DNA of 42,288 nt, taken from a virus. The notes beneath the pieces are model-generated. The model was given only the letters and a program-made list of their open reading frames with translations, searched no databases and was not told the DNA's origin. Shown here in pieces: positions 35,177 to 42,288 of the stretch (position 1 is its first letter; the number at the start of each line of letters is the position of its first letter). The stretch lies in the IMG/VR virus record IMGVR_UViG_3300001419_000011, positions 1-42,288 of that record; one strand, written 5' to 3'. The position numbers were made by a program, and so were the translations under genes.

Positions 35177-36312
35177 GTGAAATTATAGAAGCTGTACAGA
35201 AGCAGGACCCCGGGTCTGAGCTTATAACTTTATTTGACCTGTCCCTACCAGACGGGTCTACAGCTTATTTTACTTCTAATTACGATGCCTCTAGTGTCGA
35301 ATTTAGGGACTCTGGCGGAACTCCGAGAACTTATGTCTCTCTCCCAATGGAGGCTGACGGTTTCGATATTTCCTCCGACGGTTCTTATTCCAGACCTACT
35401 CTAACTGTTGCAAATGTGAATAGTGTTTTTGCTGATTCAATTGGTATAGATTTTGAAGAGCTTATTGGTCGTAGAATTACTCGTAGATTAACATTAAAAA
35501 AATACTTATATGGAGAGAGCGGAGATTCTAATCCCCCTATAGAGTACCCAAGAACAACTTATGTAATTGATCGTATTAAAGACAAAAATATTATTCAAGT
35601 TACTTTTGAACTAGCAGCACCTTTTGACATTGCTGGAATAACTTTGCCTCGTCGCCAAGTAATTAGTGGCGGCTGCCCGTGGAGATACCAAGGAGCCTCT
35701 GCTAGCCTTAATGAAGAGGATAAAAAGGGCGGATGTATTTGGCATGCAGAAGGCGACTATAGAGGTGGAAATATTTATGTCAATTCAAAAGATGAGTACA
35801 TAGTTTCTTCTACACTCACTTTTACAACCTTCTCGGGTTCAGGCACAGCGGGGTCTTATTACAGAACTGTAAAAACGGGACTCACGCAAGTAGATTCTAG
35901 TGGAGAATATGCAACTCCTTCTGGAACGATTTATGACTATTGGCAGTGCTTGACAAACACTTCTAGTACTCCTTCGGACACAAATACGGACTGGAGAAGG
36001 GTTAGAATATTTTATATCTATAGTGCTTCTACCACATATAAAGCGTTTACTGATACTTCTTACAATGACTATGTTTTATACAGCTCCCAGATTTGGAAAG
36101 TAAAAACAATTACACAGGATGCAAATAGCCACATTTCTACTCCTCAGTCAAATAACTACTGGACTCGAGGGGATTCTTGTGGAAAAAGAGTAACTTCTTG
36201 TTCTCGAAGATTTCATGCCACTCCAGATGGTTCTGGAGGTATTTTAACAACTACGACGAAAGAGGTGGCCTTGCCTTTTGGAGGGTTCCCAGCTTCGAGA
36301 ATTTACAAGTGA
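35173..36312 (+). CDS. minor tail protein L-like, with four conserved cysteines
   Basis: 379 residues, GTG start. The N-terminal 160 residues match lambda L (PDGSTAYFTSNYDASSVEF, EELIGRRITRRLTLKKYL, FELAAPFDIAGITLPRRQ). Cysteines 168 (GGCPW), 188 (GGCIW), 336 and 343 (SCGKRVTSC) correspond to the [4Fe-4S] cluster ligands known for lambda gpL. Between them about 140 residues are inserted (200-330), a beta-rich Ser/Thr/Tyr domain resembling a binding module. It lies between M and K genes. Confidence 0.88.
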   Translation: MSEIIEAVQKQDPGSELITLFDLSLPDGSTAYFTSNYDASSVEFRDSGGTPRTYVSLPMEADGFDISSDGSYSRPTLTVANVNSVFADSIGIDFEELIGRRITRRLTLKKYLYGESGDSNPPIEYPRTTYVIDRIKDKNIIQVTFELAAPFDIAGITLPRRQVISGGCPWRYQGASASLNEEDKKGGCIWHAEGDYRGGNIYVNSKDEYIVSSTLTFTTFSGSGTAGSYYRTVKTGLTQVDSSGEYATPSGTIYDYWQCLTNTSSTPSDTNTDWRRVRIFYIYSASTTYKAFTDTSYNDYVLYSSQIWKVKTITQDANSHISTPQSNNYWTRGDSCGKRVTSCSRRFHATPDGSGGILTTTTKEVALPFGGFPASRIYK

Positions 36313-36983
36313 TAGAGCACTTAATGAATGAGTACCCGCGAGAAGCCTGCGGAATACTTTTAAATAAGCGAGGAAAATTGGAATGGTTTCCTTGTGAGAA
36401 TGTAGCAGAAGGTGACGAAGAGTTTCGCATTTCAGCAAATGACTATATAAAAGCAAGTTTGCAGGGAGATATTCATGCAATTGTTCATAGCCATCCCGAC
36501 TCATCTCCTGAGCCAAGTGAGGCAGATAAGCAAGCATCTGATTTTCTTGGGATTCCTTATTGGATATACGCCATACCTAGTTGTGAGCTTTATGTTTATG
36601 AGCCGAAAAGAAAAAAAGAGCCGCTACTAGGCAAAGAATACAAGTTTGGAGTAAATGATTGTTATTCACTTGTAAGAGATTACTATAAAGATTTAAATAT
36701 TGATTTACCTGCAATTCCTTTTGAAGATGATTTTTGGCTAAAAGGAATCAACTATTTTGATGAACTGCAAGATGCTTTTGGATTTGTTACTGTAGACGAA
36801 CCACAAAAGCATGATATGATTATTTTTAATGTTATTTCAAATATTCCGAATCACTGCGGGGTTTACTTAGGCGAAGACGTTTTTATACACCACGCAGTTG
36901 ATAGGCTTTCATGCCGAGAATCCCTACACTCCTTTTGGGGTAGATACGTTACGAGATATATACGATGCAAAAAGTTTATTTAA
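36309..36983 (+). CDS. tail tip protein K-like: JAMM + NlpC/P60 domains
   Basis: GTG 36309 overlaps the L stop (GTGA); upstream codons are a shadow. 224 residues. A JAMM metalloprotease domain has E12 (REACGI), H60 and H62 (HSHPD), S70 and D73. The NlpC/P60 part has C118 (NDCYSL) and H182 (HCGVYL). In lambda-like phages K is needed for tail tip assembly and may cut peptidoglycan during DNA entry. Both active sites seem complete. Confidence 0.9.
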   Translation: MIEHLMNEYPREACGILLNKRGKLEWFPCENVAEGDEEFRISANDYIKASLQGDIHAIVHSHPDSSPEPSEADKQASDFLGIPYWIYAIPSCELYVYEPKRKKEPLLGKEYKFGVNDCYSLVRDYYKDLNIDLPAIPFEDDFWLKGINYFDELQDAFGFVTVDEPQKHDMIIFNVISNIPNHCGVYLGEDVFIHHAVDRLSCRESLHSFWGRYVTRYIRCKKFI

Positions 36984-38107
36984 ACGGAGATATTGCAAAG
37001 TTTGGTTCTGTGTGGGAAACTTCTTGCAGAACAATTCCTGAAATTTTTAAATTGATTGACTGCCAAACTCCGGGATTTCGTAAGTATCTTATTGACGCAG
37101 CGGATAACGGTATTGAGTATGAAATTCGTCGAGGAGAAGAGTTTGTAAGCGAAGAAAACCTACTTCTCTCTTTGGGCAAAGAAGATATTATTATTACGGA
37201 AGTTCCTACGGGATCAAAGTCTGGAGGTGCGAAACTTTTAGTAGCTGCCGCAATTGTAGCACTTTTGGTAATCAACCCTGGAGGGGCCTTTACTACTACT
37301 ACTCAGATGTCAGGAGCAGCCATTGGTCAGAGTGGAACAGTAACGGTAACGACTGGACTTAATGCGACGGGTCTTGCACTCGCAAGTGTTGCTGTTAATC
37401 TGTCTTTAACGGGAATTTCTCAGCTTATCGCCCCCGGCCCAGAAGCCGACGGTGCCGATACAAATGAAGGCTACCTTTTTAATGGACCTATAAATACTAC
37501 GAAGCAGGGATTGCCGGTTCCTGTTGCATATGGTGAGCTTATTGTTGGTGGTGCCGCCATTTCTGCTGCATTTACTGCAAGTCGTCAACCTCCGGCTGCA
37601 TCTACAAATTTTGGTCCTGGATTTTCTAACCCTAGCGAATCTCAGGAATTAGACTCTCCGAATACTGCTGGGGGCGGCGCATACCAAGACTGTTTCATAG
37701 CGGATGCTCTTGTGACAATGAAAGACGGAACAGAAAAAAGAATTCAAGAGATAGTTCCGGGGGAGGAAGTAAAAAGCCAAAGTGGGTTTAACACAGTCAT
37801 TGAAAACAATGCTCAGCTTGGAAAAGCTAGGCTATATTCGATAAATAATAATTCTCATTTTGTAACTGATACTCACCCTTTCCTGACTTTAGAAGGGTGG
37901 AAAAGTTTTAATCCCTCGGTAACAAGAGAGATTCACCCAGGGCTAGAAGTTAGCCAACTAAACATTGGTGATACGTTAGTTACGGCGGAAGGCGAAGAGG
38001 TTCTGGAAAAATTTACTAAAATTTACAAAACCACTCCAATATTTAACTTAAATGTAGACGGAGACGATACGTATATTGTGAACAAGTTTATTGTTCACAA
38101 TAAATAG
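36965..38107 (+). CDS. tail assembly protein I with C-terminal Hint (intein-like) domain
   Basis: 380 residues. Residues 1-85 are the ubiquitin-like part of lambda I (KVYLNGDIAKFGSVWE), 90-155 contain hydrophobic segments, and 165-242 are the usual glycine/alanine-rich end (GLPVPVAYGELIVGGA). From C243 a Hint module follows: block A CFIADALVTMKDG, block B with TDTHPF (H304), and block F TYIVNKFIVHNK at the very end. All residues for N-S shift and Asn cyclisation are present, but after HN only K380 remains and no endonuclease is inserted. It could cleave I at C243. Overlaps K by 19 nt. Confidence 0.85.
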   Translation: MQKVYLNGDIAKFGSVWETSCRTIPEIFKLIDCQTPGFRKYLIDAADNGIEYEIRRGEEFVSEENLLLSLGKEDIIITEVPTGSKSGGAKLLVAAAIVALLVINPGGAFTTTTQMSGAAIGQSGTVTVTTGLNATGLALASVAVNLSLTGISQLIAPGPEADGADTNEGYLFNGPINTTKQGLPVPVAYGELIVGGAAISAAFTASRQPPAASTNFGPGFSNPSESQELDSPNTAGGGAYQDCFIADALVTMKDGTEKRIQEIVPGEEVKSQSGFNTVIENNAQLGKARLYSINNNSHFVTDTHPFLTLEGWKSFNPSVTREIHPGLEVSQLNIGDTLVTAEGEEVLEKFTKIYKTTPIFNLNVDGDDTYIVNKFIVHNK

Positions 38108-38117
38108 GAAATAATTC

Positions 38118-41100
38118 ATGGCAATAAGAACAATCCCTTATAGACAACAATATGGTGCTGTATATGATCTTATTTCGGAAGGACCGATCGAAGGTCTGGT
38201 AAACAGCGAAGCCAGCGTCTACCTTAATGAAACTCCTATTACTAATTCTTCTGCCGTAGAAATTTATGGCTCTAGAATTATCACAGTCTCTGCATCTGCG
38301 AGCAGTGCTAATATTACTGGAACTTTTCTTAGTACTGACGTAGGAAAAAATATAAATATTCCTGGAGCGGAAGCTGCCAGCACTACCTCTGCGTCTTTAA
38401 CTCCCGGCTCCACTACTTTAATTACTTCTTCCTCCATTTTTAATGCCGCCTATATCGAAGCAAGTGCTCGAGGGGCTTCCGCAGCTTATGTTAGAATTGC
38501 TGGGGCTGGTCCCGACGGAGGAGAGTATCGTGGTAGAATTTATAAAGTTAATTCCGGTACTTCTGTATTAATCACGCCGGCAACAACTACTGCCGTATCT
38601 TCGGGCGCTGCAGTAACCATCGACTTTGTTGCCTCTATCTCGAACGTGACTTCTAGCACTACGGCTACCGTATCTCGAGTGGTTCCTCGAACTGCAACTT
38701 CTGTACGAGGTCAAATTTATGCCGCTCAAGCTGTTACGGGAGACTACTATAAGAATTTCTCAAATGCAAAAGTATTTTTTCGCCCTGGAAACACCTATCA
38801 GAATCCTATAACGAGTATTGCCTGGGCACCTACCGACAGCTTTATAGTTGCAGACGGAAGCGAATTAAAGTGGTATGACAAAGATAGTGTAAACGAGGTT
38901 ATAGTCAATCCGTTAGACTCTCAAGGATTAGGACTTACACGAGAACGCTCTCAAGAAATCTCAAATGTAAAACTAACGCTAGAGTTTCCTGCCGGGTTAT
39001 TAATCGCACAAAAAGATGGAGACATTAAACAAGGCGTTGCAGAGTTTCAAGTTTTCATTGATTACAAGAGAGCTGCGTCTGATACTGCCTATGAGACTTT
39101 TCTTATTTATGGAAGATCAAACCCTCCTGCCTGGCCTTCAGGTACAAGAAGAATTACTGGTATCTTTGAAGAGGACTATCGTTTAGGCCAAGAAGGTGTT
39201 ATTCGCACTATTTCAACCCGTAGCTCTTTTGTTACAGAAATAGACTTAAATATTTCTGACTATGCCCCTTTCTATGAATGGAGACTCAGAATACGCCGAC
39301 GCACTCCAGAAGACCCCAAAGATTTTGTAGGGTCTGCCAACTTAGATGACGGCTACAACTTTATCGGAGTTACTCGACTAAAAACAATCCAGGCTTCTAC
39401 TCAGAATATTTTTAGCTATCCGAATTCGGCTTATGCTGCTGTTGAATTTTCTGCGGAAGATTTTGACACGCCTCCTAATCGTAGTTATCATATTCGTGGT
39501 AAAAAAGTAAAAGTTCCTACCAACTATATTACTCGAGAAGAGGCGGGAACGAATGAAGCAAAGTACACTCGAAATAAAACTACCGGAGCAGATACAGGCG
39601 CATACGTAACTTGGGATGGAACATTCCGAGGCGATCTTTCTCTGTCTGCTTCTTCTGTTAATTATCCTTTAGTTTATACGAATAACCCTGCTTGGATTTT
39701 TTACGATATTCTTACTAATAAAAACTACGGTATTGGTGATTTTGTAGAAGAGTCAGATATTGATAAATATTCTCTTTATCAAATTGCTAGATATTGTGAT
39801 GAATTAGTCGACGATGGAAACGGTGGACTAGAGCCTCGGTTTACCTGTAATGTTTACTTTAGCACTAAGCAAGAAGCCTATAAAGTACTAAAAGATCTTG
39901 CTAGTGTTTTTAGAGGTATGATGTACTGGGTTGATGGACAGATTACTCCTGTTCAAGATCGTCCAAAAGAGCCGGTATACACCTTTACTCAAGGTAATGT
40001 AATTGATGGTTTATTCTCCTATGAGACTACGGGCCAGCGGGCTCGTATTAATCAAGTAAATGTTACTTGGAATAACCCAGAAGAATTATACAAGCAATCA
40101 GTAGTTACTGTAGATGATATTGATAACATAGCAGAAACTGGAAGAATTGTAGCAAAAGATGTTGTTGCTTTTGGTTGTACTTCAGAGGGACAGGCGCTGC
40201 GTGTTGGCCGCTGGCATCTATTGACCGATACACTTGAGACTGAGATAGTTAAGTTTCAGACTTCGATTAATGCAGGCTTTTTACGTCCCGGAGATATAAT
40301 CAATATTCAGGACGCTAAGCTAAATTCTGTTGAATTTAGTGGCCGTACTTCTAATGGTAGCACGACCACTTCGATTGAGCTAGACAGAAGTGTGGTACTG
40401 CAGGCTGGTGAAACATACAATCTTTATTTAATATACCCAGAGCCTGGATGTTATTTGCAGCAGGCTTCTGCAACTATTAATAGCACTTCTTATGAAAGAG
40501 GTGATTTAATTCTTTTAGATGCTGGCGGAAGCGCCATTGAAACTGCTGAAGATGCGGCAAATCTTGTAGATGACTCCGGCAATAAAGTATTCACTTCTTT
40601 CAACCCTAATTCTAGACTAGAGAAAAAACAAATTTCTACAAGTGCGGGTACTGTTAGCACTCTTACTGTTTCTTCCGCTTTTTCTTCAGCTCCTGGAACT
40701 GAAGTAATTTGGGCAGTTTCTAATATTAACGAATACCAAAGAGAAGATGCAGTTGTTCGTTACAGAATTTTAGGAATCACAGAAGACCAAAAAAATCTAT
40801 TTTCAATCGTTGGTTCTAAGGTTATCTTTGAAAAATACGACGAGGTAGAAAAGAATTATGCTAGATATGTAGAGCAATATAAGCCTACTCCATCTAGAAA
40901 TGAGACTGTTCCTTCTCCTTCTGAGCTGAAAGTAGAGCTATTACCTACTGCGAGCCCAGAAGAAGGGACAGCAGGGGTAGGACAAAAAGTTGTAGTTTCT
41001 TGGAACGAACCTGTAGAAACTTTTACGGACTCAAACGGTAACTCTACTACTCGTAAATATCAATTTATTGATACCTATGAAATCCAGCATAATTTTAAAG

Positions 41101-42288
41101 GTACGGGCTATGACGGAGGTTTTGAAACTATTCCGATACCCGCCTCTCAAAACAGTGCTATTTTTGACAATGTTACGGCAGGAAATTATACTGTAAAACT
41201 TCGTACTAGAAATATACAAGGGCAGCGTTCGCCTTGGATTTCTATTACTCAGCTTGTAAAAGCTACTGAGCAAACGGCTTCTTATTTTGATAGAGTTACA
41301 AGAGCCATTCTTGGCGGGAGCATAAATTCTCCTATAACATTAAATACTAGTACTGGCTTAGTTAGTATTGTCAACAGTGACTACAAGTTTGTGTCGTCTG
41401 TGGGTCGTTCCTACACTGTGGCAAGTGCAACAACCGCTCAAAGCGAAATTAATTTTTCCTCTCTTTCAAGTGGACAAAGCGCATATTGGTATTTTGATTA
41501 TAGTGATACTGTAGATCCTTGGAAAACCGCAGTAATTCATGTAGACTCTGTGGTTGAGAGTGTATCGGGCGGTACAATTGATTATCAGTACTGGAAAGAA
41601 CTCGGGGCCTCTAATAATGGACTCGCTTTAATTTCCGGAACTATTTCTGTGGCCACCGGTTCTGCTACAGTTACTGGAGTCGGCACCTCTTTTACTACTG
41701 ATTTTTCTGAAGGAGATCTAATTAAGCTGTCTCCTAATGGGTCCCATACAGAAGTTGCTGGAGCAGAGTACTCTGAGGTCGCAAGCGTTGAAAGCGATAC
41801 GATTCTTCATCTTCGCGGTAACTTAACAAAAACTTTTAGCGGAGATTATGCTTACAAACAGTCTTTGAAGCCTGATTTTGTTAATGACAATATTTTGGCA
41901 GAAGTAACTAACTCTGCGGGTACCTACAGTATTGAGTACTTTGTTTTAAAAAGCGGAGAACAAGGAGCGGAGGGAGAGACCGGCCCCCAAGGCGCAACAG
42001 GCATACAAGGGGTTCAGGGCGTTCAAGGTCCTATCGGGGATACAGGCCCTATTGGGGATACAGGGCCTCAAGGGGTTCAAGGTGCTCAAGGCCCTATAGG
42101 TGATACTGGTATTCAAGGTGTACAAGGCCCTCAAGGTAATACCGGTGTTCAAGGTGTACAAGGCCCTCAAGGTAATACCGGTGTTCAAGGTGCTGTTGGT
42201 GACACAGGTGTTCAGGGTCCTCAAGGACCTATCGGAAATACTGGTATTCAAGGTGTACAAGGCCCTCAAGGTAATACCGGTGTTCAAG
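38118..42288 (+). CDS. tail tip / host-specificity protein J-like (3' end outside the window)
   Basis: At least 1390 residues, no stop before the window edge. Start MAIRTIPYRQQYGAVYDLIS then EGPIEGLVNSEASVYLNE is the J N-terminus. An inserted S/T/A-rich domain (about 55-185) precedes the conserved tip domains (WIFYDILTNKNYGIGDFV, QEAYKVLKDLASVFRGMMYW). A fibronectin III-like domain lies at about 940-1045, then a beta-rich region, and from residue 1280 a collagen-like GXY tail. It is the baseplate hub that contacts the receptor. GGAA lies seven bases before the ATG. Confidence 0.9.
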   Translation, partial: MAIRTIPYRQQYGAVYDLISEGPIEGLVNSEASVYLNETPITNSSAVEIYGSRIITVSASASSANITGTFLSTDVGKNINIPGAEAASTTSASLTPGSTTLITSSSIFNAAYIEASARGASAAYVRIAGAGPDGGEYRGRIYKVNSGTSVLITPATTTAVSSGAAVTIDFVASISNVTSSTTATVSRVVPRTATSVRGQIYAAQAVTGDYYKNFSNAKVFFRPGNTYQNPITSIAWAPTDSFIVADGSELKWYDKDSVNEVIVNPLDSQGLGLTRERSQEISNVKLTLEFPAGLLIAQKDGDIKQGVAEFQVFIDYKRAASDTAYETFLIYGRSNPPAWPSGTRRITGIFEEDYRLGQEGVIRTISTRSSFVTEIDLNISDYAPFYEWRLRIRRRTPEDPKDFVGSANLDDGYNFIGVTRLKTIQASTQNIFSYPNSAYAAVEFSAEDFDTPPNRSYHIRGKKVKVPTNYITREEAGTNEAKYTRNKTTGADTGAYVTWDGTFRGDLSLSASSVNYPLVYTNNPAWIFYDILTNKNYGIGDFVEESDIDKYSLYQIARYCDELVDDGNGGLEPRFTCNVYFSTKQEAYKVLKDLASVFRGMMYWVDGQITPVQDRPKEPVYTFTQGNVIDGLFSYETTGQRARINQVNVTWNNPEELYKQSVVTVDDIDNIAETGRIVAKDVVAFGCTSEGQALRVGRWHLLTDTLETEIVKFQTSINAGFLRPGDIINIQDAKLNSVEFSGRTSNGSTTTSIELDRSVVLQAGETYNLYLIYPEPGCYLQQASATINSTSYERGDLILLDAGGSAIETAEDAANLVDDSGNKVFTSFNPNSRLEKKQISTSAGTVSTLTVSSAFSSAPGTEVIWAVSNINEYQREDAVVRYRILGITEDQKNLFSIVGSKVIFEKYDEVEKNYARYVEQYKPTPSRNETVPSPSELKVELLPTASPEEGTAGVGQKVVVSWNEPVETFTDSNGNSTTRKYQFIDTYEIQHNFKGTGYDGGFETIPIPASQNSAIFDNVTAGNYTVKLRTRNIQGQRSPWISITQLVKATEQTASYFDRVTRAILGGSINSPITLNTSTGLVSIVNSDYKFVSSVGRSYTVASATTAQSEINFSSLSSGQSAYWYFDYSDTVDPWKTAVIHVDSVVESVSGGTIDYQYWKELGASNNGLALISGTISVATGSATVTGVGTSFTTDFSEGDLIKLSPNGSHTEVAGAEYSEVASVESDTILHLRGNLTKTFSGDYAYKQSLKPDFVNDNILAEVTNSAGTYSIEYFVLKSGEQGAEGETGPQGATGIQGVQGVQGPIGDTGPIGDTGPQGVQGAQGPIGDTGIQGVQGPQGNTGVQGVQGPQGNTGVQGAVGDTGVQGPQGPIGNTGIQGVQGPQGNTGVQ
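41955..42288 (+). repeat. collagen-like GXY repeats in the J tail
   Basis: At least 37 Gly-X-Y triplets with few breaks, rich in GPQ, GVQ, GIQ, GNT and GDT. The DNA itself is repetitive: a unit containing GGTGTACAAGGCCCTCAAGG recurs at about 42117, 42156 and 42249. Such runs form trimeric fibres and change length easily by recombination. The array continues beyond the window. Confidence 0.92.

Follow-up and report, generated by a model that had tools for sequence, protein, structure and literature searches.

Bacterial intein-like (BIL) domains have been described from bacterial surface and secreted proteins and from a ubiquitin-like locus of ciliates. Those of type A occur in bacterial proteins that are hypervariable and not conserved (PMC7765530). 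BILs without a nucleophile at the +1 position give mainly cleavage products (PMC7664689, PMC4031507), and attack of a free amine on the thioester allows those of type A to ligate (PMC4031507). BIL2 of Tetrahymena thermophila BUBL1 (PDB 6Y75, 6TMM) is flanked on both sides by ubiquitin-like domains; formation of an isopeptide bond with the epsilon-amine of a lysine, and conjugation of ubl4 to other proteins, have been reported for it (PMC8616854). The open-licence literature that we searched gave no report of BILs, or of Hint domains in general, on phage virion proteins; in BFVD, the annotation 'Hint domain containing protein' already stands on uncultured phages. Here, we analyze a viral DNA of 42,288 nucleotides (the window; IMG/VR record IMGVR_UViG_3300001419_000011, positions 1 to 42,288), in which gene I of a lambda-type tail module codes for a tail assembly protein with a C-terminal Hint domain that ends in His-Asn-Lys (HNK) and stop. 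This Hint is one member of a family found on phage virion proteins and no isolated oddity, and we consider it reasonably probable that it is a phage-type BIL autoprocessing domain, whose Cys243 thioester would detach residues 1-242 of protein I. The parts of the gene are as follows.

36965..38107, plus strand: gene I, tail assembly protein I with C-terminal Hint, 380 residues, ATG to TAG.
36965..37690, plus strand: N-extein, protein I residues 1-242, of the length seen in whole Hint-less relatives.
37655..37690, plus strand: variable glycine-rich linker SPNTAGGGAYQD, with D242 as its last residue (-1 position).
37691..38104, plus strand: Hint domain (A-type-BIL-like), residues 243-380, recognized by family profile, AlphaFold model and Foldseek.
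37691..37693, plus strand: Cys243, the putative position 1 nucleophile, invariant in 39/39 aligned family members.
37865..37876, plus strand: block B, T301-D-T-H304, with H304 invariant and T301 nearly so (T or S).
37895..37903, plus strand: G311-W312-K313, invariant across the family.
38096..38104, plus strand: terminal H378-N379-K380, with K380 as the final residue.

A preliminary description of this DNA had proposed a complete Hint at the end of protein I, set after the glycine-rich end of the tail protein and carrying the catalytic residues of inteins (C243, TxxH with H304, and a final HN), and had suggested a Hint/BIL profile search and a survey of homologous I proteins; both bear the proposal out. 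As a single sequence, the domain gives only matches below the cut-off against Pfam Vint, Hint and Intein_splicing, stays below it in the Pfam, NCBIfam and PHROGs scans alike, and reaches BIL2 (6y75) in the PDB at E 2e-4. Hence, we turned to profile and fold evidence. A profile built from 39 family members matches 6y75/6tmm at E 1.2e-10, CthBIL4 (2lwy) at E 3.8e-10 and inteins from 6e-8. The AlphaFold2 model of the domain scores 90.7 in predicted local distance difference test (pLDDT), and a Foldseek search with it ranks BIL2 6y75 first (E 4.8e-11, template modelling (TM) score 0.80), followed by the gp41-1 and Ssp DnaB inteins and CthBIL4. Alignment, profile and model all point to a Hint fold with blocks A, B, F and G that wholly explains the 138 residues, with no homing endonuclease domain. 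The sequence before C243 reads ...SPNTAGGGAYQD242, and block G ends V-H378-N379, followed by K380 and the stop codon. Judged by profile and predicted fold, the membership of residues 243-380 in the Hint superfamily is secure.

The described systems each share part of this arrangement. BIL2, the best match by both profile and fold, likewise has no Ser/Thr/Cys at +1 and is associated with ubiquitin-like domains, and the protein I family has been published to start with such a domain (PMC1779556), corresponding to residues 1-81 here. However, whereas BIL2 is flanked by two of them and BUBL BILs directly follow one, the Hint of I is C-terminal and starts at residue 243, about 155 residues beyond the end of the ubiquitin-like domain (near residue 81); moreover, +1 is Met in the BIL2 construct and an invariant terminal Lys in the phage Hint. 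With A-type BILs (e.g., CthBIL4, 2LWY), the Hint of I shares the fold, Cys1, the C-terminal His-Asn and the absence of both a +1 Ser/Thr/Cys and a homing endonuclease. In contrast to their hypervariable bacterial hosts, protein I is a conserved phage tail protein, and the Hints of its group lie on phage virion proteins, share Lys at +1 and are often C-terminal, with nothing after it. Therefore, we call the domain A-type-BIL-like rather than a plain member of that class; by its sequence, it appears to be a phage-specific version with an obligatory +1 Lys. Class 1 inteins such as gp41-1 and Ssp DnaB resemble it in fold, C1, block B Thr/His and terminal HN but possess a C-extein with a +1 Cys/Ser/Thr. 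As the preliminary description had noted, only K380 follows the HN of protein I, so that splicing in cis is impossible and the domain, as read from its sequence, is not a splicing intein. The Hog domain of Hedgehog (fold match 1at0) is similarly a C-terminal Hint with a thioester open to an external nucleophile; unlike Hog, the Hint of I ends in HNK in place of a sterol-recognition region, and the lipid-transfer part of the comparison finds no support here. Finally, residues 1-208 of I are homologous to lambda gpI/TAPI (phrog_32, E 1.2e-37), and the gene lies between K and J in the order L, K, I, J that is usual for lambda-type tails, but lambda gpI (223 residues) and the Hint-less relatives end without a Hint.

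The arrangement recurs at ten other viral loci, several of which may be near-copies of one virus, and its recurrence argues against chance; nine are complete at the 3' end and terminate in HNK-stop, the tenth (L007) being cut by its contig end. At 14 further loci, the I proteins (51-56% identical) are Hint-less, those translated being 234-253 residues long; thus, removal of the Hint would leave, at 242 residues, a protein I of normal length. The Hint-less proteins mostly end in an xFEV-like tail (NEFEV, NQFEV) that is missing from the Hint-bearing ones. A MAFFT pairing of this NEFEV tail with the Hint end NKFIVHNK is probably coincidence. The sampled I-Hints form one clade (99/99), and the simplest reading is therefore that, within this sample of loci, protein I gained the Hint a single time and passed it on vertically. 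Across the Hint, the ratio of nonsynonymous to synonymous substitution (dN/dS) is 0.066-0.128 in six comparisons, indicating purifying selection. This bears on the notion that the domain is the remnant of a mini-intein, now decaying after the loss of its C-extein. Phages commonly carry inteins, and the domain does resemble a mini-intein in having no endonuclease, but low dN/dS, identical HNK-stop ends on unrelated proteins (see below) and the expectation that decayed inteins should not keep a Lys and a stop so precisely make this notion, already disfavoured, very improbable.

If the domain self-processes, Cys243 would attack the D242-C243 peptide bond in an N-to-S acyl shift assisted by the Thr and His of block B, giving a thioester that links I(1-242) to the Hint. 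With no Ser/Thr/Cys at +1 and no C-extein, this thioester would be resolved by water or an amine, hydrolysis being the simplest course; the Hint would be detached at some stage, leaving a 242-residue tail protein for the tail-tip plug beside J, and Asn379 could free the terminal lysine. Self-cleavage at C243, or attack by another nucleophile, would be the logical outcome, as had been anticipated in the preliminary description. C1, the block B His and the terminal HN are invariant in 39/39 aligned members that span several protein backgrounds, which we count in favour of self-processing. The -1 residue is Asp in the window and in 5/7 distinct aligned I-Hints, and Asp at this position causes premature N-terminal cleavage in many inteins (PMC11842431); together with the behaviour of BILs without a +1 nucleophile, this leads us to expect that C243 would detach I(1-242). 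In structural studies of lambda, the model of gpI within the tip extends to the final residue, with three beta-augmentations to gpJ (PMC10721106), and the C-terminal half of gpI is the tail-tip plug (PMC10721106, PMC11101478). A C-terminal domain of 138 residues would hence be an unusual addition there, and its processing would fit the assembly of that region, where the plug lies against gpJ.

Several observations weigh against this interpretation. Two I-Hints (L005 and L006) carry Ala at -1, which is slow at this position in an intein where it was tested; the block F Asp of inteins is an Asn here (residue 361); and the model of full-length I is poor (pLDDT 53), so that the D242-C243 junction is not judgeable structurally from it. 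Further, an invariant terminal Lys and a retained HN are unexplained if cleavage is the sole function, because cleavage at C243 requires neither. The HNK terminus, which leaves almost nothing for C-terminal release, would also suit a structural or regulatory domain that has lost processing and stays on the protein in the virion. We hold this to be unlikely, since a structural role alone should have cost some of the deeply diverged members their C1, block B His or HN, all of which are kept.

The preliminary description stood in its domain, residues and placement, but it overlooked the wider phage family and the conserved terminal lysine. C-terminal HNK-stop Hints occur on a J-like protein with Phage-tail_3 (L031, L036), on a DUF4815/phrog_358 protein (L032), on a virion structural protein of phrog_10938 (L139) and on proteins without a named family (L056, L149, L152, L153, L175, L179, L181, L183, L200); some members are internal, the HNK being followed by a C-terminal part. 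In window numbering, C1, F2, the block B His, T308, G-W-K (311-313), D336, T369 and the terminal H, N and K are invariant in the 39 aligned members, and C1, the (T/S)xxH block and HNK are present in all 28/28 scannable C-terminal members. The data are fragments of uncultivated viruses and pattern scans favour close relatives; therefore, the counts are of distinct sequences and not of independent events. With the +1 residue left free, Lys stands at this position in 70 distinct Hints, of which 53 are internal and 17 terminal; Cys accounts for seven, Ala for two, and Leu, Ser and Ile for a single call each. The lone Ile call proved to be a mis-parsed HNC (L104 reads VVVHNCHN). Of the 49 stretches from an HN-x-stop scan with x free, 47 had turned up before when Lys was specified; by sequence, there are 33 distinct ends, 33/33 of which are Lys-stop, a count that holds for Hints of this type since the scan patterns were built around T(Y/F)xV(N/D) or a somewhat broader version of it. 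The sole other match is an internal HNS-Trp intein. Thus, the terminal lysine is, with the His-Asn, the most conserved feature of the family C-terminus and no trivial leftover.

Beyond these viral sequences, 84,980 prokaryote genomes yielded only one match to the HNK signature (L206), and its upstream stops and the absence of a Hint mark it as chance. A scan of the genome contigs with the Hint alignment found no relative, and when cultured phages were queried with the Hint, the only matches were canonical inteins and others that were weak or unassigned. Within the viral set, a second, more divergent group of Hints has HNKG(G/A/S/T)N followed by about 100 residues, at some twenty or more loci (e.g., L062:1791-3083, L073:3324-4646). 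Some proteins carry two tandem internal HNK Hints in proline-rich or linker-like surroundings (L039-L041, e.g., L041:4446-5423, and L096:4414-5403). At L149:8961-11871, two nearby genes each end in a divergent Hint with HNK-stop, with a short, related-looking Hint-less open reading frame between them and others before; this pair is possibly a set of duplicated virion modules.

Given the obligatory lysine and the isopeptide bond reported for BIL2, transfer to an amine is a serious possibility. Here, the C243 thioester of I would be attacked by K380 or by a lysine of a putative tail-tip partner such as J, and the Hint would be a ligase tying virion proteins covalently. We regard this transfer as a tentative and distinctly less probable option than self-processing as such, of which it is a specific continuation, so that confidence in the two overlaps. 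The 33/33 Lys ends obtained with x free, the Lys at +1 in 53/65 internal matches (the rest mostly Cys) and the lysine chemistry reported for BIL2, the solved relative nearest in both sequence and fold (PMC8616854), are all consistent with it; moreover, a covalent link could replace the xFEV-like tail conserved in Hint-less I and missing from Hint-bearing I. On the other side, +1 of the solved BIL2 construct is Met rather than Lys, its nucleophile lying in the next domain, and the J lysines specific to Hint-bearing phages (e.g., K299, K584) are fully confounded with ancestry because these loci form one clade. In J, residues 299, 584, 712, 734 and 823 are Lys in all sampled Hint-bearing phages and other residues in Hint-less ones, making them candidate acceptors, subject to that confounding. 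More speculatively still, the phage-specific C-terminal Hints at large might be a self-contained, ATP-independent ligase that passes the Cys1 thioester to a lysine amine, at +1 or on a partner, and so joins the components of tail tips and further virion structures through isopeptide or amide bonds.

Two neighbours of gene I are relevant to these considerations.

36177..36983, plus strand: gene K, JAB and NlpC/P60 peptidase, true start uncertain.
38118..42288, plus strand: gene J, tail hub/central fibre with collagen-like repeats, cut by the window end.

The JAB of K has been proposed by Iyer et al. to trim protein I at the glycine of its ubiquitin-like domain (PMC1779556); this site maps near residues 87-88 of I, separate from the Hint junction. 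As a companion of the family at large, JAB was found in 0/12 records with HNK-type Hints on other proteins, many of these records being fragments. J has its own start, as had been pointed out earlier; this is an ATG at 38118, after a gap of 10 nucleotides. An I-J gap of 9-10 nucleotides is kept in Hint-bearing phages (window 38105-38118; compared across L008-L021). In most Hint-less relatives, by contrast, the two genes abut or overlap, the exceptions (L011, L012 and L020) having an 11-nucleotide gap. J of the window ends in collagen-like Gly-x-y repeats where the window is cut, and more of it (1960 residues) can be read in L004, a 98-kb contig with an identical I. The capacity of BILs for ligation via a free amine (PMC4031507) lets one envisage that I is joined by trans-splicing to another polypeptide, for instance one that starts with a nucleophile. 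However, the Hint is complete rather than split and is the only one in both the window and L004, and J starts MAIRT, MASIF or MSRQQ with no conserved Cys/Ser; trans-splicing, which was not obvious at the outset, thus seems highly unlikely.

The recurrence, on proteins of the tail tip and elsewhere in the virion, of a Hint whose catalytic residues are intact and whose terminal lysine is obligatory suggests an unrecognized self-processing or covalent joining step in particle assembly. The module could serve as a small C-terminal protein-ligation tag. In the phages themselves, the conserved sequence features of the HNK-stop Hints suggest that they may be used to cut or chemically tie the parts of the particle.
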